From a virus, in IMG/VR virus record IMGVR_UViG_3300017987_000401, positions 1 through 21,639 of that record: a stretch of 21,639 nt of DNA; one strand, given 5' to 3'. The first letter of the stretch is position 1; every line of letters starts with the position of its first letter. Shown one piece after another: positions 1,316 through 9,157 of the stretch. A program made the translations under genes and the position numbers. Below the pieces are notes generated by a model, which was given only the letters and a program-made list of their open reading frames with translations, had not been told where the DNA came from and ran no database searches.

Positions 1316-1512
1316 GCGAATAGCGTTCCTTGTCGAAGTCGCTCGGCGAGTCGGTTCGCTTCGTCGAGGTCCCAAGTAAAGGCGACGGAAACCCGAACGG
1401 GCGTTTGAGGGTCGGCCGGCCGAAACCCGGGCAACGGGGGGTCGCCGACGAACGCCAGGTCGTCGGCGGGTGTCCATTTTGTTCTACGGGGAAACACCCG
1501 AATCGCTTTCAT
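1312..1512 (-). CDS. Short 'MKAIRVFPRRTK' phage protein (possibly truncated family member)
   Basis: 66 residues starting MKAIRVFPRRTKWTPADD and containing FVGDPPL and VSVAFTWDLDEANRLAE. I recall longer phage proteins with this N-terminus followed by 'GGPA' and a cysteine-rich, radical-SAM-like part. Here the protein stops right after the FTWD helix and ends RQGTLFA. It would therefore be an N-terminal module only, but that comparison is from memory. The start is coupled to the helicase-loader stop by an ATGA overlap, and its stop is coupled to the zinc-ribbon gene. The function is unknown. The terminal QGTLF could bind the DNA polymerase sliding clamp. Confidence 0.65.
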   Translation of the reverse strand: MKAIRVFPRRTKWTPADDLAFVGDPPLPGFRPADPQTPVRVSVAFTWDLDEANRLAERLRQGTLFA

Positions 1513-2123
1513 GCGCTCATTCTCCGATCGGGGCCGGCGAGTTCGAAATGTGTCCCGCAAAGAAGCCGCGACGCGATCCGCTCGTCGTAGAGTGTCGCGA
1601 TCCGGCCCGGCTCGCAATTACTGATATAGACCCCGACCCGGCCGGCGTATTGCTCGCGAAGGTCGAGGGTCTTTTTCAAGGTGGAATAGTGCAGGTCGCC
1701 GATCTTGACCCGGGCCCCGATCTCGTCGACGACCAGTAGCGGCGACGTCTTGACCGTATCGTGCCAAAAATAGTCTTCCGGCCGATAGCCAAGCCCGGCC
1801 AGGTCCTCGGCGAGAATGTAGCACGCGCCGCGCGTGACCCGGTCGGTCAAGGCCAGGGCGCCGAGTGTCTTGCCGGCGCCGACCTGACCGTAGAGGAACA
1901 ACGGCCAGGGCGCCCGGCCCGTGCAAAGTGCGCCGAACGCCTCGCGAAGCCCCGGGTCGACGTCGTCCCATCGACGGTCAAGGGTCGACCGAATCTTCGG
2001 CAGGTGTCGGGCCTGGTCGGGCGGGCACATTGCCACCCGGCGGTGTCCCGGTGGTCGGTTTGAAGCTCCGGTCGGGTACTTGGTATCCGGGTGTGTGAAT
2101 TCGGCCGGTTGTTGGGTTTCCAT
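1509..2123 (-). CDS. DnaC-like helicase loader (AAA+ ATPase)
   Basis: 204 residues. Walker A is GQVGAGKT at residues 79-86 and Walker B is LLVVDE at 129-134, followed by a sensor-1-like VYISN and an arginine-rich IASRLL segment. The architecture and position directly after the initiator gene match phage helicase loaders of the DnaC/lambda P functional class, which deliver the host replicative helicase to the phage origin. The N-terminal 30 residues are poorly ordered (rich in P, T and G). The start chosen has GGGAG eight bases upstream. It overlaps the initiator gene by 146 nt in another frame. A later ATG at 2030 would shorten the overlap but has a weaker ribosome binding site. Confidence 0.85.
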   Translation of the reverse strand: METQQPAEFTHPDTKYPTGASNRPPGHRRVAMCPPDQARHLPKIRSTLDRRWDDVDPGLREAFGALCTGRAPWPLFLYGQVGAGKTLGALALTDRVTRGACYILAEDLAGLGYRPEDYFWHDTVKTSPLLVVDEIGARVKIGDLHYSTLKKTLDLREQYAGRVGVYISNCEPGRIATLYDERIASRLLCGTHFELAGPDRRMSA

Positions 2124-2856
2124 GCGTCACGCTCCCTTTGGCTGGTATCTCCATAAACTGCTGAACCTTCGACCCGTCGCGAACGATCAGTTCGAGCGAG
2201 TCGAATTTCTTGCCCCGGTCGTTGTCCCCCTGGTGGAAGGGGGAGCGGTGGCAACCGTCGATCGCGGCCGTCAGGTCGTCGACCGAATAACCTTCGTCGA
2301 GTCGGGCCTTGATAAGCCTGCATTCCTTGCTGGTGGCCTTCGGCTTCCGGTGGGCTCTTGGGTGGTAGGTCCGGTAATGATCGAATACAAGACGAACGTC
2401 GGCCCCTGGCGCCCCTTGTGGCCCCTCCGACTTCTTTTGTTTGTTTTCTTGTTTATTATCTTCTCTTCTCTTCTCTTCTCTGGTCCGCATTTTGTCCGCT
2501 TGCAAAGCGGACATTTTGCGGACACTATTTTTCCTTACGGCGTCTTGCGCCCGGCGCTTCGCCGACCGGCCGTTGTGTTCCGCAAACCGTGGAATAGAAA
2601 CACCTTCGGGCGACACGTCGAGCCACCCGACCTTGTGAAGTTCGGCGGCGAACCCGGCGATTCCCGTTTCGCTGTCGACGACTTCGGCCGTGTAACCGGG
2701 CAAGGTCCCGTCGGCCGAATGGGCGTCGGCGATACCCCACAACCAGAACAGCGCGCCGATGGTCCGCACCTTGTCCGCTTTCAATGCGGACGAAATGCGG
2801 ACAACCCGGGGGTCGGTCCACAAGTCGCAACGCATCTTGATCCAGTCGCCGGCCAT
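1978..2856 (-). CDS. Replication initiator / replisome organiser (lambda O-like) with origin inside the gene
   Basis: 292 residues. Residues 1-100 (WIKMRCDLWTDPRV..., GALFWLWGIAD, VGWLDV..., IPRFAEHNGRSAKRRA) look like the winged-helix N-terminal domain of phage replisome organisers. A basic, charged linker follows (residues 126-142, EEKRREDNKQENKQKK), then a C-terminal domain and a P/T/G-rich tail. A 14-residue motif occurs twice (residues 19-32 and 112-125, VRxxSALxADKxRT). At DNA level these copies are two symmetric GTCCGC modules, so the gene probably contains the phage origin as in lambda O. The gene begins 2 nt after the upstream stop and overlaps the DnaC-like gene, as lambda O precedes P. 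The DNA-binding role is inferred from fold and context. Confidence 0.75.
   Translation of the reverse strand: MAGDWIKMRCDLWTDPRVVRISSALKADKVRTIGALFWLWGIADAHSADGTLPGYTAEVVDSETGIAGFAAELHKVGWLDVSPEGVSIPRFAEHNGRSAKRRAQDAVRKNSVRKMSALQADKMRTREEKRREDNKQENKQKKSEGPQGAPGADVRLVFDHYRTYHPRAHRKPKATSKECRLIKARLDEGYSVDDLTAAIDGCHRSPFHQGDNDRGKKFDSLELIVRDGSKVQQFMEIPAKGSVTHGNPTTGRIHTPGYQVPDRSFKPTTGTPPGGNVPARPGPTPAEDSVDP
2431..2482 (-). other. Purine-rich/AT-rich tract, probable DNA unwinding element
   Basis: Read on the minus strand this stretch is almost pure purine (repeats of AGAGA) passing into an A-rich run with ATAATAAAC and AAGAAAACAAAC. It is far more AT-rich than anything nearby. It directly abuts the GTCCGC module at 2483-2523 inside the initiator gene, the same iteron-then-AT-rich layout as lambda ori. 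It encodes the charged linker of the initiator. Confidence 0.55.
2483..2523. repeat. Origin-like iteron module A
   Basis: A 41-bp symmetric module: GTCCGC-N5-GTCCGC-N7-GCGGAC-N5-GCGGAC, i.e. two direct hexamers followed by two inverted hexamers. Both N5 spacers are ATTTT and the centre is TTGCAAA. It sits inside the initiator gene next to an AT-rich purine tract. Probable initiator binding sites; a long cruciform is also possible. Confidence 0.65.
2762..2802. repeat. Origin-like iteron module B
   Basis: A second 41-bp module with exactly the same hexamer spacing as the one at 2483-2523 (GTCCGC-N5-GTCCGC-N7-GCGGAC-N5-GCGGAC), but with different spacer bases (ACCTT, TTTCAAT, GAAAT). It lies 93 codons upstream in the same reading frame of the initiator gene, near the protein's N-terminus. 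Confidence 0.65.
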
Positions 2857-3269: not shown

Positions 3270-3646
3270 TGCGGGCCCCCTAGTGCCTGATATTCTTCGT
3301 GCCGTTCGCACAACTCCCGTACCCCGTTGTCGCCCCCGTTCTCGTCGAACCACCACGCGACGGCGGCGGCGGCGATCGTTCGTTCGGTGACCTTGTCGCC
3401 GTCGAGTTCCCAAGCGAGCCCGACGTCGTCGCCGTTTATAACCAAAACGATCGACCGGCATCGCATCTCGTCGACGTCGACGACGCCACCTTCGGCCGGG
3501 TGGCAATCGTCGGGGTCGGCGTTTATGACGGCCGGCCGGTAGGCTTCGACCGTATAGTCGACTTCGACGGCGAGTCGTAGCGTTCCGAACGTGCCTAGTT
3601 GGATTTCCTCTTCGACTTCAAGGGTTCGCCGGGTTTGTCTTGGCAT
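3263..3646 (-). CDS. Phage protein of unknown function
   Basis: 127 residues starting MPRQTRRTLEVEEEIQLGTF. It is acidic and rich in beta-type segments (TLRLAVEVDYTVEAY, CRSIVLVINGDDVGLAWELDG), with a helical C-terminus (TIAAAAVAWWFDENGG, VRELCERHEEYQA). AAGG lies upstream of the ATG. The first 52 nt overlap the 3' end of the DUF5131 gene in another frame, which argues for tight operon packing. I do not recognise a family. Confidence 0.65.
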   Translation of the reverse strand: MPRQTRRTLEVEEEIQLGTFGTLRLAVEVDYTVEAYRPAVINADPDDCHPAEGGVVDVDEMRCRSIVLVINGDDVGLAWELDGDKVTERTIAAAAVAWWFDENGGDNGVRELCERHEEYQALGGPQC

Positions 3647-4374
3647 GGTTTCGCCTTTCTGGGGTATTCTCGAATTTGTAGGTCGGCTGGGAATTTCTCG
3701 ACGTCGCGTTCGACCCGGCCGTCGATGTCGAGTTGTTTGACGAACGTTGCGACCCCGGCCTGTTTGCATTGCTTGACCAGGTCGCGCACCCATTCGATTG
3801 AGCAACGCCGGCGCCGGTGCCCCGATTCGCAACCAACAATCACCCAGTCGAGATAATGAACGAAGCCGGCGTCGATCGGTTGTAGCATCGGTTCGACAGA
3901 AACGAATCGAACGGCGGCGGGGATAGAAAGCAAGATCGAAACGCGTTCGCGGTAGGCTTCTCGGTTCTCGGTCGTGGTTCCGATCCAAACGTTTGGCAAG
4001 TCGGTGTCGGCGGGCGTCGACTCGAACCATTTCCGCATATTTGCGGGGCGCTTGGTCAACACCTGGAAAGTGTGTTGCGGTAGCGTTCCCATAATTTGCC
4101 AAACCGCGTCGATCCAGTCGGGGTCGACGTCGTCGTGGAATAGATCGCCCATCGAACAAACGAACACCCGTCGCGGTTTCCGCCACCTGTACGGCTCTTG
4201 AAGTCGCAGCGGGTGAAACGTTACCCGAAAGGGCTCGTCGGCGGGGTAGCCGAATCGGCCGGCGAGTCGCTTTGCCATTCGTTCGGCGTAGCAATGTTGA
4301 CAACCCGTCGAGATTTTTGAGCACCCCGTTACGGGATTCCATGTTTCGTCGGTCCAGTGGATTTTGGTCGGCAT
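3595..4374 (-). CDS. Phage Gp37/Gp68 family (DUF5131) protein
   Basis: 259 residues starting MPTKIHWTDETWNPVTGC, the hallmark N-terminus of the DUF5131 'phage Gp37/Gp68' family. Cysteines C18, C25 and C28 (GCSKISTGCQHCYAERMA) form a cluster reminiscent of the iron-sulphur ligands of radical SAM or photoproduct-lyase-like proteins. Other family landmarks are RVFVCSMGDLFHDDVD, FQVLTKRPANM, NVWIGTTTEN, RFVSVEPML, DWVIVGCESG and FVKQL. The length is normal. The biochemical reaction is not established; a nucleic-acid-directed radical reaction is a plausible guess from the cysteine pattern. It stands alone after a 104-nt gap containing a large inverted repeat, so it may have its own regulation. Confidence 0.88.
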   Translation of the reverse strand: MPTKIHWTDETWNPVTGCSKISTGCQHCYAERMAKRLAGRFGYPADEPFRVTFHPLRLQEPYRWRKPRRVFVCSMGDLFHDDVDPDWIDAVWQIMGTLPQHTFQVLTKRPANMRKWFESTPADTDLPNVWIGTTTENREAYRERVSILLSIPAAVRFVSVEPMLQPIDAGFVHYLDWVIVGCESGHRRRRCSIEWVRDLVKQCKQAGVATFVKQLDIDGRVERDVEKFPADLQIREYPRKAKPCQDKPGEPLKSKRKSN

Positions 4375-4394
4375 AGCGTCGCGCCTTTTCAAGA

Positions 4395-4469
4395 GCCCCG
4401 GGCCGGTTACTTGCACCCCAAACGGTGTTAAACGTCGTTGGTTGTGTTTGGGTTAGCCGGTCCCGGGGC
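4395..4469. repeat. 75-nt imperfect cruciform / nested hairpin
   Basis: Outer arms GCCCCGGG (4395-4402) and CCCGGGGC (4462-4469) are perfect, extended inward by CCGG/CCGG with one bulge. A second inner stem is CCCAAAC/GTTTGGG, with a 20-odd nt loop. It fills most of the gap between the genes ending at 4479 and starting at 4374. On the plus strand a T-rich run follows a few bases beyond; on the minus strand only TCTTG follows. It may be a terminator, attenuator or protein-binding site. Confidence 0.5.
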
Positions 4470-4824: not shown

Positions 4825-5985
4825 TTAGATACTGAGTGTTTTCCCGCCGACGACCAGGTCGACGGGTGCGAGTCTGCTTTCGGGCATTTCCCACCCGTCG
4901 GGGTCGCGGTAGTTCGGCCAGGTGCCGGCGGCCGTGCATTCGGCGATTTGGTCGAGGGCGCGGCGGTACTTGATCCGGCCGGTTCGGATTGTATCGTAGA
5001 GAACGGGCGCCGATCGCACGCCATAGGGCGATTCCTTTTCGGCGGCGACAATACAACGTTCGATCGCCTGGCCCGTCAAGACCGTGTAGCCGTCGCCGTA
5101 GAATGCGAGTTGTCGGTCGTATCGCCATTTTGCGATCGACCAAACGAAGTCTTCGCCGGCGTCTTCGGTGCTTTTGAAGTCGGCCAGTCGGGGAATACTC
5201 TCGTCGAGGGCGTCGACGCGGCACTTGCATAATAGGCCCGTGTCGGGGTCGTTCCATACTAGGGTTACTTCGAACCGCACGGTCGGCCCGGTTAGGTACG
5301 CTTGGGCGCGGGTGCTGTTGCGAATGCTGCCGGCGACCCCGATCATTCGGTTGTACCAGTCGCGGGAAACGATCGACTTATCGGCGTTCACCCGTTCGAA
5401 TTCGGCGACCTTCTCTTTGTAGGCGGTCGTTGCGGTCGGTTTGGCATATTCCGACCCGTCGTCGCGCCGAAGGTCTTTCGCAAAGTCGGGCATAACGACA
5501 TAGCGGGCGGCGATTGCCAGGGGTTCGAGTGCGGCGGTATGCAAGAAAGTGCCTAGCGCGAACGTGTCGCTTGTTCGTTCCGGCCGCGCGAGTTCGGCCC
5601 GGTAGTGTGCCGGCGACTTCTCCATCGGCGTCAAGCTCGAATTGTTGACGGCGGCGATTTCGCGATAGATTTCGAACGGCACGTCGTAATAGATTCCCGG
5701 CTGTGTGAGGTCGACGCCCGGTTGCCAGTCGACGCGCGGCGGGTCCTTCTTGATGTTGCCGTAAAAGGTTGGGCCCGGCGATACGGTGACGGTTTCGGGT
5801 TGCCCCGGCGCGTCGATCGCGGCGTGACCGGCCTCGGCTTGCTTTGCGTCGACCTTTCGAAGCCGGTAGAATTTCGTTCGAACGCTGCCGGCCGATCGCC
5901 CTAGTCGTTCGGCAATCTGGCGGTACGAGTGGCCGGCGGCCGTCATTTCGCGAAGCCGGTCGGTTTCGTCTGTGGCCCATCTCAT
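4825..5985 (-). CDS. RecE-like PD-(D/E)XK exonuclease with N-terminal HTH domain
   Basis: 386 residues. Residues 1-42 (TDETDRLREMTAAGHSYRQIAERLGRS..VRTKFYRL) form a Myb/SANT or GcrA-like helix-turn-helix. After a linker, GIYYDVPFEIYREIAAVNNSSL begins the RecE/exodeoxyribonuclease VIII-type PD-(D/E)XK domain. Its landmarks are SPAHYRAEL, FALGTFLHTAALEP (H149), CRVDALD (D258), LADFKST (D269-x-K271) and a conserved YDRQLAFY segment. Such enzymes resect double-stranded DNA to give 3' tails for annealing-type phage recombination. No separate RecT/Beta annealase is recognised in the window. The HTH fusion is unusual to my knowledge. The start overlaps the upstream stop as ATGA. Confidence 0.82.
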   Translation of the reverse strand: MRWATDETDRLREMTAAGHSYRQIAERLGRSAGSVRTKFYRLRKVDAKQAEAGHAAIDAPGQPETVTVSPGPTFYGNIKKDPPRVDWQPGVDLTQPGIYYDVPFEIYREIAAVNNSSLTPMEKSPAHYRAELARPERTSDTFALGTFLHTAALEPLAIAARYVVMPDFAKDLRRDDGSEYAKPTATTAYKEKVAEFERVNADKSIVSRDWYNRMIGVAGSIRNSTRAQAYLTGPTVRFEVTLVWNDPDTGLLCKCRVDALDESIPRLADFKSTEDAGEDFVWSIAKWRYDRQLAFYGDGYTVLTGQAIERCIVAAEKESPYGVRSAPVLYDTIRTGRIKYRRALDQIAECTAAGTWPNYRDPDGWEMPESRLAPVDLVVGGKTLSI

Positions 5986-6647
5986 TTGGCGGGGTTCCTT
6001 TCAAGTTTGGCGGCTTGCTTGTGTCCGCAAACGTGGCAACGTCCGTCGCCGATCGCCCTTGCGGTGTAGGTGAGTCGTCGACCGCAATCGACGCAAGCGT
6101 CGTCGGTCAAGGCGTGTTTGCCTTCGAGTGCGATTGCCTGGTCGATCGCGGCTTCGACCTTCGAATATGAGTTGTCAAGAAACCCGTCGGGGTTGGCGAT
6201 CGGGCGGCGATTCATTTCGCGAACGGCTTCGACCAGGGCGGCGAATTGAATTTCCGTCGGGCCCCCGTTGAGGAGGTCGGCGGCTTTGCGACAAGTCGGG
6301 TTTTTGGGGTCGCAAATATGTTCTTGCCCGGTGTTCGAATCGAATTCGACTTGACACATTGGGCAAAAGACATTTGCGTCGCCGCAAGCCCCGATTGTGT
6401 CGAAGCCGTCGAGGGTGTCGGTGTGTTTGCAATTCGGGTTCGGACAAGTAAGAAGGTCGGCGGCGAGTTTGTGCCCGTCGGTGTCGATCGGCCGCGCCTT
6501 CGGGTAGTGTTCGCCTCTCGCGATTTGCATTTTACGGGGCGCGTCGACCCCTACGATCGCGTAACTCTTCGCGGTGCGGGCGACGGTGATCGTTATATCG
6601 TCGCCGATCTGGATTGTTTCGCCGGGTTTGCGTTTTAGAACTAGCAT
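5982..6647 (-). CDS. CsrA-domain protein fused to a Cys-rich zinc-binding region
   Basis: 221 residues. Residues 1-50 are a clear CsrA/RsmA domain (MLVLKRKPGETIQIGDDITI, then VGVDAPRKMQIARGEHY). CsrA proteins bind GGA motifs in mRNA leaders and control translation. The key RNA-binding arginine equivalent to R44 is present (QIAR44). A normal CsrA ends near residue 60-70. Here some 160 residues follow with cysteines at 68, 73, 88, 95, 98, 112, 119, 185, 188, 204 and 207, including CPNPNC, CPMC and CVDC...CHVC, consistent with two or three zinc ribbons. The gene begins 42 nt after the winged-helix-like gene and its stop overlaps the RecE-like start, so it belongs to the early operon. Confidence 0.85.
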   Translation of the reverse strand: MLVLKRKPGETIQIGDDITITVARTAKSYAIVGVDAPRKMQIARGEHYPKARPIDTDGHKLAADLLTCPNPNCKHTDTLDGFDTIGACGDANVFCPMCQVEFDSNTGQEHICDPKNPTCRKAADLLNGGPTEIQFAALVEAVREMNRRPIANPDGFLDNSYSKVEAAIDQAIALEGKHALTDDACVDCGRRLTYTARAIGDGRCHVCGHKQAAKLERNPAK

Positions 6648-7301: not shown

Positions 7302-7401
7302 GGTCTGGGTTCCTGTTTTCTGGGTTCTGGGGTGGTAGAAATAGCCGGCGTGGGAATTCTTTCCCTTGGGGCGCCTGTGAAGCCCGTTCGCCGGCGTCTG
7401 T

Positions 7402-7453
7402 AAACAAAAACCCCGGGGCGATCGGCAAGGAGGTAAACCGCCCGCGCCCGGGG
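7402..7453 (-). terminator. Intrinsic terminator between csrA-like gene and early operon
   Basis: The stem CCCCGGG...CCCGGGG (7447-7453 with 7411-7417) is followed on the minus strand by TTTTTGTTT. The loop contains ACCTCCTTGCC, i.e. an anti-Shine-Dalgarno-like CCUCCUU in the RNA. It lies in the gap 7302-7577, which otherwise holds a bidirectional hairpin and a short leader for the gene starting at 7301. No gene is seen in that gap. Confidence 0.65.
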
Positions 7454-7577: not shown

Positions 7578-7769
7578 CTAGCGTGTCCGTTTTCGTCCGT
7601 TTCGCATCTTGTCGCGTCTGACCTTCTGCCGATCGACCTCGATGTCGCGCGGGGCGTCGACCCCGACGCGAATCGAGCAACCGGGCCGGCTACAATCGCA
7701 ACCGAACAAGGTCACTTGCGCGGCTCCGATGTAGAACGGTTCTCCGACGCGGATTCCAAGAACTAACAT
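7578..7769 (-). CDS. csrA: Phage CsrA-like RNA-binding regulator with Cys insertion
   Basis: 63 residues, normal CsrA length. MLVLGIRVGEPFYIGAAQVT and IRVGVDAPRDIEVDRQKV match the CsrA beta-strand core, and the arginine corresponding to R44 is kept (R47). The loop between strands carries an insertion with three cysteines (GCDCSRPGC, residues 23-31) not seen in ordinary CsrA, which might bind metal or sense redox. The ATG has GGGAG eight bases upstream. The gene is isolated between the integrase terminator and a double terminator, so it has its own promoter; TTTACT and TATGAA about 15 bases apart are a weak candidate. CsrA-type proteins regulate translation by binding GGA in leaders; the target here, host or phage, is unknown. 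Confidence 0.85.
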   Translation of the reverse strand: MLVLGIRVGEPFYIGAAQVTLFGCDCSRPGCSIRVGVDAPRDIEVDRQKVRRDKMRNGRKRTR

Positions 7770-7814
7770 TGCAATAACTCCCTTTTCATAGGTGCGCATC
7801 CGTGAAGTAAACCA

Positions 7815-7878
7815 ACAAACAACAAGCCGGGCGCGGAATCCGTTCCGGCAAAAGGGCTCCGTCCGGTTCGCGCCCGGC
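7815..7878 (-). terminator. Terminator after integrase
   Basis: The perfect 10-bp arms GCCGGGCGCG and CGCGCCCGGC (7826-7835 with 7869-7878) are followed on the minus strand by TTGTTGTTTGTTGG. The element begins 23 nt after the integrase stop and separates integrase from the csrA-like gene. Confidence 0.7.
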
Positions 7879-7900
7879 AGAAACGTTAGAAGGTCGCCCG

Positions 7901-8788
7901 CTACTTTTTGAGGGGCGGCAAGAAGTCGACGGCCGACGGTTGTTTCGCGATTCGCGGGTCGATGTAGTGGCGTTCGGTCGTCTTGTAGTCTGCGTGGCCG
8001 GCTTGACGTCGGGCGGCGTCGGGCCCGGCTAGTGCGGCCGTGTAAGATAGGTTCGTTCGGCGTAGCTTGTGGAATAGATCGCGGCGCCCGGGTTCCGACG
8101 GTATCCCCGCCTGTTCGACGATCTTTCGAAACGATCGCCAGAAGTGGCGCCGACAGTGGGGCCAGGGCCAAACCAGGTCGCGGCCGGCGTCGTAGTGCGC
8201 GGCGATCGCGGCGATTGCCTGGTCGGGTAGCCAGTGCAGCCGATCGCGACGCGTCTTGCCTTGCCGTGTGACCAGGTATCGGTCGGCCAGGTTGACGTCG
8301 GCCGATCGGGTCGAGCGTAGCGTCGAGACACGGGCCCCGGTCCAATAGGTGACGATTACCAGGGACGACCAGAATGGCCCCCGCCGGATCCCGGTCGGGA
8401 ATTCGCCCTTGACCGCACGGCACGCGACGACCAGGGCGTCGACCTGGTCGATCGTCCATGCCTCCGGGAGTCGTTGCGGTTCGGCGGCGGTGGCGATCTT
8501 CCCGGGCGGTTCGCAAAACCCTTCCTCGACCGCCGCGTTCCATAGGGTGAGGATCGCCCGCCGTTTGCTGTTGACCGTGGCGGCCGACCTTGACTTGAGG
8601 TAGTCGGCCAGGAATCGGCGGAATAGGTGGGTAGTAAGTTCGGAAAACCGCACGGGTGCGCCGTTCCACTCGTCGAGGACGGCGACGGCGATCGCGTATT
8701 GTTCCTGCGTCGACCTGGCGATCCCCAACCGGGCGGGGATATACCAGTTTGTGAGAAATTCGGCGAGTGTTGGAATCGATTGGATCAT
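7901..8788 (-). CDS. int: Tyrosine site-specific recombinase (phage integrase)
   Basis: 295 residues. An N-terminal SAM-like core-binding domain spans about residues 5-90 (TLAEFLTNWYIPARLGIARSTQEQY...). The catalytic domain carries the complete tyrosine-recombinase set: R153 (TGARVSTLR), K178 (RQGKTRRD), H240-K-L-R243, H265 (QAGHADYKT) and the nucleophile Y275 (RHYID). It should catalyse integration and excision between attP and a host attB, with a candidate attP about 0.8 kb upstream at 9578-9707. The ATG lies only 12 nt below a palindromic operator that overlaps the probable promoter, so expression is probably repressed by a phage regulator. No excisionase gene was recognised. Confidence 0.95.
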   Translation of the reverse strand: MIQSIPTLAEFLTNWYIPARLGIARSTQEQYAIAVAVLDEWNGAPVRFSELTTHLFRRFLADYLKSRSAATVNSKRRAILTLWNAAVEEGFCEPPGKIATAAEPQRLPEAWTIDQVDALVVACRAVKGEFPTGIRRGPFWSSLVIVTYWTGARVSTLRSTRSADVNLADRYLVTRQGKTRRDRLHWLPDQAIAAIAAHYDAGRDLVWPWPHCRRHFWRSFRKIVEQAGIPSEPGRRDLFHKLRRTNLSYTAALAGPDAARRQAGHADYKTTERHYIDPRIAKQPSAVDFLPPLKK

Positions 8789-8799
8789 AGCAAAGGCGA

Positions 8800-8817
8800 A
8801 AGTGTAGTGTTACACTT
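8800..8817. promoter_or_regulatory. 18-bp palindromic operator upstream of integrase
   Basis: The arms AAGTGTA and TACACTT are perfect inverted copies around GTGT. It overlaps the -10 and spacer of the likely integrase promoter and lies 12 nt above the ATG, a good repressor site. Confidence 0.6.
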
Positions 8818-8828
8818 GTAATTGTAAT
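8801..8828 (-). promoter_or_regulatory. Candidate integrase promoter
   Basis: On the minus strand, ATTACA and TACACT are spaced by 16 bp (each 4/6 to sigma70 consensus) within the only AT-rich patch of the region (two TGTAATT copies on the plus strand). The predicted start would leave a very short leader before the ATG at 8788. Confidence 0.4.
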
Positions 8829-8977
8829 TCGCTGCCGACACGGCCCGGGGGCTTTTCCACGGTCCCCCCCGACTCCCGCCCCTCTTGCTGCGGTGCAAGG
8901 GGTCGGGTCGTATCGGTCGTGTCGATTGATCCGTCGGATTCCGTTCATTTTTCTATGGGTTTGGGTGGCACGGCGAC

Positions 8978-9035
8978 AAAAATCCCCCCGCCCGGCTTGC
9001 GGCCGGGTTGGGTCGCAAGCGCCGGAACGGGGGGG
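8978..9035 (-). terminator. Strong intrinsic terminator between regulator and integrase
   Basis: CCCCCC (8984-8989) pairs with GGGGGG (9030-9035) and an inner CCGGC-CGCAA-GCCGG stem forms on the minus strand, followed by ATTTTT. The remaining interval 8829-8977 holds two further GC-rich hairpins and no supported gene. Confidence 0.75.
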
Positions 9036-9157
9036 AGGTTTCGGGGTGCGCATCGGTGCGCGTGATACCCGGCCGCATTCATCGCAAAATACCGTTAAGG
9101 GTCAGCGGCGACCCGGTTTGCCAGAGTGGCAAGAAGTCGCCGGTGTCACTTCGAACA
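8978..9157 (-). ncRNA. Candidate structured small RNA from the duplicated promoter
   Basis: A transcript starting about 7 nt after the TATAAT at 9164-9169 and ending at the strong terminator would be about 180 nt. It would fold into consecutive simple hairpins: CGGTGT/ACACCG (9141-9160, only partly inside the RNA), TTGCCA-CTC-TGGCAA (9118-9132), GGGTC/GACCC (9099-9114) and GCGCA-CCGA-TGCGC (9048-9061), then the terminator. No convincing ORF with a ribosome binding site is contained. The function is unknown. It could be an antisense or regulatory RNA of the switch region, or simply a transcribed leader. Confidence 0.4.

Follow-up and report, generated by a model that had tools for sequence, protein, structure and literature searches.

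The initiator gene of this viral DNA raises the question of why it twice carries the same arrangement of four hexamers, and whether these hexamers have been kept as DNA sites of a replication origin or for the peptide that they encode. We examined this question in the window, that is, the whole stretch of 21,639 nucleotides that was analysed (IMG/VR virus record IMGVR_UViG_3300017987_000401), and in its relatives. An earlier note on this DNA had proposed a probable phage origin inside the initiator gene, with the protein repeat as a possible by-product.

Hexamer modules and purine tract in the initiator gene

Both modules are exact copies of GTCCGC-N5-GTCCGC-N7-GCGGAC-N5-GCGGAC and lie within the initiator gene on the minus strand (2856-1978). 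Module 1 (2762..2802, minus strand) has its hexamers at +54, +65, +78 and +89 of the gene and encodes VRISSALKADKVRT (residues 19-32 of the initiator) inside the winged-helix domain, and module 2 (2483..2523, minus strand) has them at +333, +344, +357 and +368 and encodes VRKMSALQADKMRT (residues 112-125). They share one frame, with an offset of 279 bp (93 codons). The earlier description of two modules of identical geometry, 93 codons apart in frame, was thus exact, and the pair is unique in the window, since the search for more GTCCGC modules that the earlier note had suggested returned only these two at up to 3 mismatches. The chance expectation of a module was 0 (none in 100 dinucleotide shuffles of the window), and the modules account for 8 of the window's 11 GTCCGC/GCGGAC hexamers. 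An avoidance of GTCCGC outside the initiator gene was also considered (3 seen vs 33.5 expected from dinucleotides), but this reading was dropped because a maximum-order Markov model expects 3.7.

On the coding strand, module 2 is followed directly on its 3′ side by a 5-bp-phased purine tract, AGAGAAGAGAAGAGAAGAGAAGA (2459..2481, minus strand, exact match), which is built of the units TAGAG-AAGAG-AAGAG-AAGAG-AAGA, encodes REEKRRED and is followed by an A-rich run. Together, they form an AT-rich, strand-asymmetric region (2420..2482), a candidate unwinding element that lies directly beside the iterons, as in lambda-type origins. The GC content is 38% at 2420-2499, compared to about 62% around it, and the AT skew is -0.84. 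The AT-rich run that had been described as touching one module is therefore real, but the phased purine tract had been missed as a separate conserved element. Among relatives, the tract windows reach a median 98th percentile of AT content within their own gene (n = 84). The 25 dereplicated relatives that have REEKRRE all use one set of codons for it (AGA GAA GAG AAG AGA AGA GAA); AGA makes up about 15% of the Arg codons elsewhere, yet it is fixed in the tract. In two loci (L095 and L096), the identical tract DNA is read as LEKRREEK. The Vibrio group keeps the 5-bp phasing with a changed sequence (TAGAT-AAGAG-TAGAG), and in the 'Rac' ydaU the period is 6 bp (AGAGGA repeats).

The initiator gene (1978..2856, minus strand) encodes 292 aa, comprising a winged-helix domain (residues 1-95), a basic helix (97-119), a linker and a weakly Phg_2220_C-like C-terminus, and it is the linker stretch that encodes module 2 and the purine tract. 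Among the PHROG families, phrog_2509, 'replication initiation protein', matches best (E = 1e-50, residues 1-144), significantly so over the N-terminal domain, while the 'O-like' phrog_18020 matches weakly (1.2e-5). No lambda O-type Pfam model matches the initiator, the weak Phg_2220_C match being the only one in Pfam. Over its first 135 residues, the initiator shares about 60% identity with the 'DNA replication protein' of the Salmonella phage epsilon15. An AlphaFold model of residues 1-120 predicts a winged-helix-like domain with pLDDT above 90 over most of the domain, followed by the long basic helix at pLDDT 73-76. The codons of this helix (SAKRRAQDAVRK..., 2500..2568, minus strand) encode a candidate iteron-recognition helix, of which residues 101, 105 and 109 track the iteron word (see below). 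No significant Foldseek match to the model was found in the PDB, nor did a sequence search against solved structures return any. For residues 29-92, VIA-align gave a weak similarity to CRP-type winged helices (Z of about 6), perhaps no more than a common arrangement of the fold.

The gene after the initiator (1509..2123, minus strand) encodes a DnaC-like helicase loader (phrog_50, E = 1.7e-11; PRK06835 ATP-binding protein, E = 2.6e-7), so that a loader gene is adjacent to the initiator gene as in the lambda-type architecture. No promoter-like sites were found near the initiator gene. Elsewhere in the window, all on the minus strand, are a gene for a protein with a CsrA-like N-terminal domain and Cys-rich zinc-finger-like motifs (5982-6647; phrog_9500, E = 1.6e-9), a second CsrA-like start downstream, seen by eye as the MLVLGIRVGEPF segment within the ORF 7578-9053, an Exonuclease VIII-like PD-(D/E)XK protein with an N-terminal sigma-region-4-like HTH (4825-5985; phrog_412, DUF3799) and, within the early region, a DUF5131 protein (3595-4416; Pfam E = 1e-80; phrog_2045).

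Conservation of the hexamers in relatives

A scan of IMG/VR by the module DNA alone returned at least 120 contigs, nearly all of which encode an initiator homologue and have the module within the matched gene or a little past it. Where present in relatives, module 1 is at gene +54, and module 2 ranges from +333 to +396 with the length of the linker. For the codon test we used 50 dereplicated relatives found by protein similarity only, which avoids selection by pattern. At the module positions, the hexamer-compatible codon was used for V (GTC) in 32/33 cases, R (CGC) in 38/41, S (TCC) in 41/41, A (GCG) in 40/42, D (GAC) in 42/42 and R (CGG) in 30/39, while the same third bases elsewhere in these genes account for 26, 31, 38, 25, 49 and 25%, respectively. 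The third position is thus fixed at 93-100% in five of the six module positions tested, compared to 25-49% elsewhere, and the hexamers are kept by synonymous choice, which the earlier note had suggested checking. That note had also named relatives that keep the protein motif without the hexamers as the case against its proposal; in the protein-found set, 41 of the 43 motif copies retain at least 20 of the 24 hexamer bases. One of the two exceptions (L148) has mainly lost the first outer hexamer, and the other (L322) keeps a VRxxxAxxAxxxRT peptide over partly altered words (GTTCGC...GCGAAC).

The hexamers are also not tied to one reading frame. Among the dereplicated genes, single GTCCGC hexamers were found in all three frames, and in a divergent group (L027, L072 and L099) a perfect module lies in a different frame, where it encodes a different peptide. 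The initiator ORF of L103 is only 133 residues long, and past its stop codon lie eight hexamers in an array and a purine tract (about 1344-1480, minus strand). This may be a natural separation of initiator and origin or, because an overlapping ORF in another frame spans the array and runs into stops at the tract, a frameshifted gene. Module 1 is absent in many relatives, and in four of them (L038, L047, L091 and L204), which keep the domain and module 2, the peptide at its position is unrelated. Taken together, the fixed wobble positions, the arrays in other frames and outside the ORF, and the relatives that lack both module 1 and its peptide strongly support that the hexamers have been selected as DNA and that the protein repeat VRxxSALxADKxRT is their by-product, as had been proposed. 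This would make the locus a strong case of DNA sites dictating a protein sequence.

The geometry of the half-sites is rigid as well. In 87 dereplicated genes, a set whose counts are inflated because it includes loci fetched by pattern (the codon test is free of this), neighbouring GTCCGC hexamers stand 13 bp apart across the dyad (-/+) 104 times, compared to 3.2 in synonymous-codon shuffles, in tandem at 11 bp 79 times (-/-, vs 2.2) and 64 times (+/+, vs 2.4), and tail to tail at 10 bp 8 times (vs 0.3). The spacers between hexamers are A/T-rich (64-89%). Many genes have extra sites at +100 and +110, and in others the cluster 2 arrays consist of five to seven.

Iteron words and the initiator helix

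Relatives without GTCCGC have another repeated word (GTAACG, GTCACG, GTCTAC and others) in a similar geometry, in which the -/+ spacing of 13 bp is kept. GTAACG occurs in the phage 'Rac' of strain 442/2, in the Xanthomonas phage Olaya, in L301-L307 and in others, and GTCACG/GTCACA occurs in the Vibrio phage 1.211.A group. Clusters 1 and 2 have the same word in 64 of the 66 genes that carry both, and one of the two mismatches (L099) looks like a chance word match. A hexamer-blind scan of IMG/VR by the purine tract alone gave 94 new loci, 92 of them with enough upstream sequence; 89 of these 92 match the initiator family, most have an array beside the tract, and six words were added (GTCTAC, GTCCCG, GTCCGA, GTCCCC, GTCGCA and CTAACG), while five of the tract-only loci had no clear iteron word. 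The system, with one word in both clusters, half-sites at -/+ 13 bp and 11-12 bp, and a phased purine tract, is present in the window, and sites in the initiator gene recur across phages of Salmonella, Klebsiella, Pseudomonas, Xanthomonas, Cobetia and Vibrio and in Burkholderiales prophages.

The word co-varies with residues 97-112 of the initiator, which read AKRRAxD/ExxRK with GTCCGC, AKxRAxTAKRV with GTAACG, AKKRxxDAERK, or A/G at 105, with GTCACG, and K105/Q109 with GTCTAC. GTCCGC goes with R101, D/E105 and K109, and GTAACG with T105 and V109; over 65 rows, the occurrence of the GTAACG word matches that of the T105 plus V/A109 signature in every case (46/46 and 19/19). In the set selected by the tract, blind to the hexamer, 17/17 distinct helices with GTCCGC have an acidic residue 105, compared to 2/34 with non-GTCC words. 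The tree of residues 1-92 requires five to six word switches, two of them on well-supported branches. Since the helix codons and cluster 2 are neighbours in the gene, recombination could have moved them jointly as one block, but a block starting at the helix fails to explain why cluster 1, located upstream of the codons for the helix, agrees as well.

These observations suggest, tentatively and at somewhat less than even odds, a modular and re-writable origin code, in which helix residues 101, 105 and 109 would set the word (at least eight words), helix and iterons would switch together on the same protein body, the invariant 5-bp-phased AGA tract would be a DnaA-trio-like element engaged by the initiator or the loader while the DNA is being opened, and the origin DNA would partly dictate amino acids of the domain and linker throughout the initiator family. 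If so, it would offer a readable specificity code with natural replicates, and replicon compatibility among co-resident prophages and initiator-origin co-evolution would become directly testable.

Some sites and look-alikes lie outside the initiator gene. In the class B relatives L243 and L321, dyads precede the initiator start by 32 and 55 bp, and in Olaya (L400) GTAACG dyads or arrays at 7397-7430 and 23003-23045 lie near other gene boundaries, where they are possibly initiator-controlled operators or secondary sites. In two Rac-type prophages, YdaU (E. coli MG1655 ydaU, L397:7120-7977, and L207:1228-2016) shares the C-terminus but differs in the N-terminal domain (DUF1376-type vs phrog_2509-type), a domain swap that also removes the iterons. 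Experimental support from oriJ of E. coli K-12 was rejected because MG1655 ydaU has this different N-terminal domain and lacks iteron words. In the rumen Bacteroidetes MAG RUG13410, about 45 chromosomal, apparently intergenic GTCCGCTTGTT arrays were seen (L325-L396, for example L331:5940-6035 and L342:2490-2600); these were discarded as family members, being long intergenic hairpins, unrelated to an initiator, in which the module match is coincidental.

A proposed origin inside the initiator gene and its alternatives

The whole is best explained by a phage replication origin embedded in the initiator gene, to which we assign a probability of about 0.8. We infer it from how the family is annotated, the helicase loader next to the gene, a tract of the unwinding type and the co-variation of word and initiator helix, as arrays and an asymmetric, easily opened tract in an initiator gene next to a loader gene reproduce the lambda plan. 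The earlier proposal is partly supported, strongly as to the hexamers being kept as DNA and by analogy as to the origin itself. The GC-skew analysis that had been suggested was uninformative, as the cumulative skew is monotonic with transcription and marks no origin. In this origin, initiator dimers would probably bind the 19-bp dyad GTCCGC-N7-GCGGAC, with further protomers stacking on the outer half-sites one helical turn (11 bp) away, and the hexamer would be read mainly by the basic helix 97-119 beside the winged-helix domain. The complex on module 2, perhaps joined to that on module 1 by a 279 bp loop, would strain and open the adjacent AT-rich, 5-bp-phased purine tract, whereupon the neighbouring DnaC-like loader would deliver the host helicase.

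The arrays could instead be operators, at which the initiator or another regulator would bind its own gene and block transcription or limit the copy number, with the origin elsewhere. The dyads just upstream of the start codon in the two class B relatives, those near other genes in Olaya and the position of module 1 in the coding region, far from the tract, would fit. However, an operator would not need an invariant phased purine tract at a fixed position, which adjoins the arrays in nearly every word class, and nearly every relative has its array at the linker, where single genes hold as many as 9 to 12 sites in total; we therefore consider this explanation unlikely. The class B dyads upstream of the gene and the two distant loci in Olaya do speak against a single-origin reading, in that the iteron word is not exclusive to one origin, and they suggest that the initiator may also regulate transcription.

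Binding by a host or another phage protein, in partition, packaging or recombination, is very unlikely, since the word changes in step with the initiator's own helix residues and the sites stay in the initiator gene across all the host groups named above. We give equally little weight to hairpins, whether an attenuator or terminator in the RNA or a cruciform extruded from the DNA. The palindromic relation among the four hexamers would fit, but the N5 spacers pair less than when shuffled among modules (0.38 vs 0.45), which is evidence against a hairpin, no Rfam match was found, and some arrays have direct half-sites only or unequal numbers of them. Least probable of all is that VRxxSALxADKxRT was duplicated for its function as a peptide, with the DNA symmetry as a by-product. 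The window copies do share one frame and encode similar peptides, but this is contradicted by the fixed third positions and by relatives in which the same domain has an unrelated peptide where module 1 would lie, and the frame-shifted arrays and the array past the initiator stop codon already refute it, unless all are sequencing artefacts.

Hence, we retain the embedded origin, which would allow the origins of many temperate phages without an annotated one to be placed to about 100 bp by nothing but their sequence. Epsilon15 is an example, as its record lists sites for the repressor, IHF and integrase and no origin. The N-terminal 135 residues of the initiator here are homologous to those of other phrog_2509 and phrog_9474 initiators (epsilon15, phiPSA1 and the 'Rac' YdaU of 442/2), and the epsilon15 and phiPSA1 groups have perfect or near-perfect modules in the same places and the same purine tract. 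The C-terminal domain is DnaT-like in epsilon15 and weakly Phg_2220_C-like here, and 'Rac' uses GTAACG, unlike GTCCGC here. In a bacterial basal origin, high-affinity DnaA boxes are followed by DnaA-trios in the region to be opened. The present layout is similar in that binding sites lie beside a short-period repeat in the region to open, and differs in that the AGA-containing purine units have a period of 5 (or 6) bp rather than 3 bp and lie inside a phage gene.

Origins inside initiator genes are already known from lambda and Stx phages. In the mostly open-access literature searched, we found no description of the two-cluster layout, of the codon-invariant phased purine tract, which would be a second origin element, or of the joint switching of word and helix. 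The earlier contrast with 'four simple iterons' in lambda was overstated, as two O proteins bind each lambda iteron, itself an inverted repeat of 18-19 bp, and the iterons lie next to a 39-bp AT-rich unwinding region (PMC7466680, PMC6022878); the 19 bp GTCCGC-N7-GCGGAC core therefore resembles one lambda iteron. Like lambda ori in gene O and the Stx-phage origins, the putative origin here lies inside the initiator gene with a helicase-loader gene next to it, and has inverted-repeat candidate iterons of 18-19 bp with A-rich spacers, an adjacent AT-rich strand-asymmetric tract and extra iterons that lengthen the protein (PMC7466680, PMC6022878). Unlike in lambda, the initiator matches no lambda O model, outer half-sites 11 bp away flank the iterons, a second cluster lies about 280 bp upstream inside the domain-coding region, the purine tract is phased at 5 bp, and the word varies within the family together with the protein helix.
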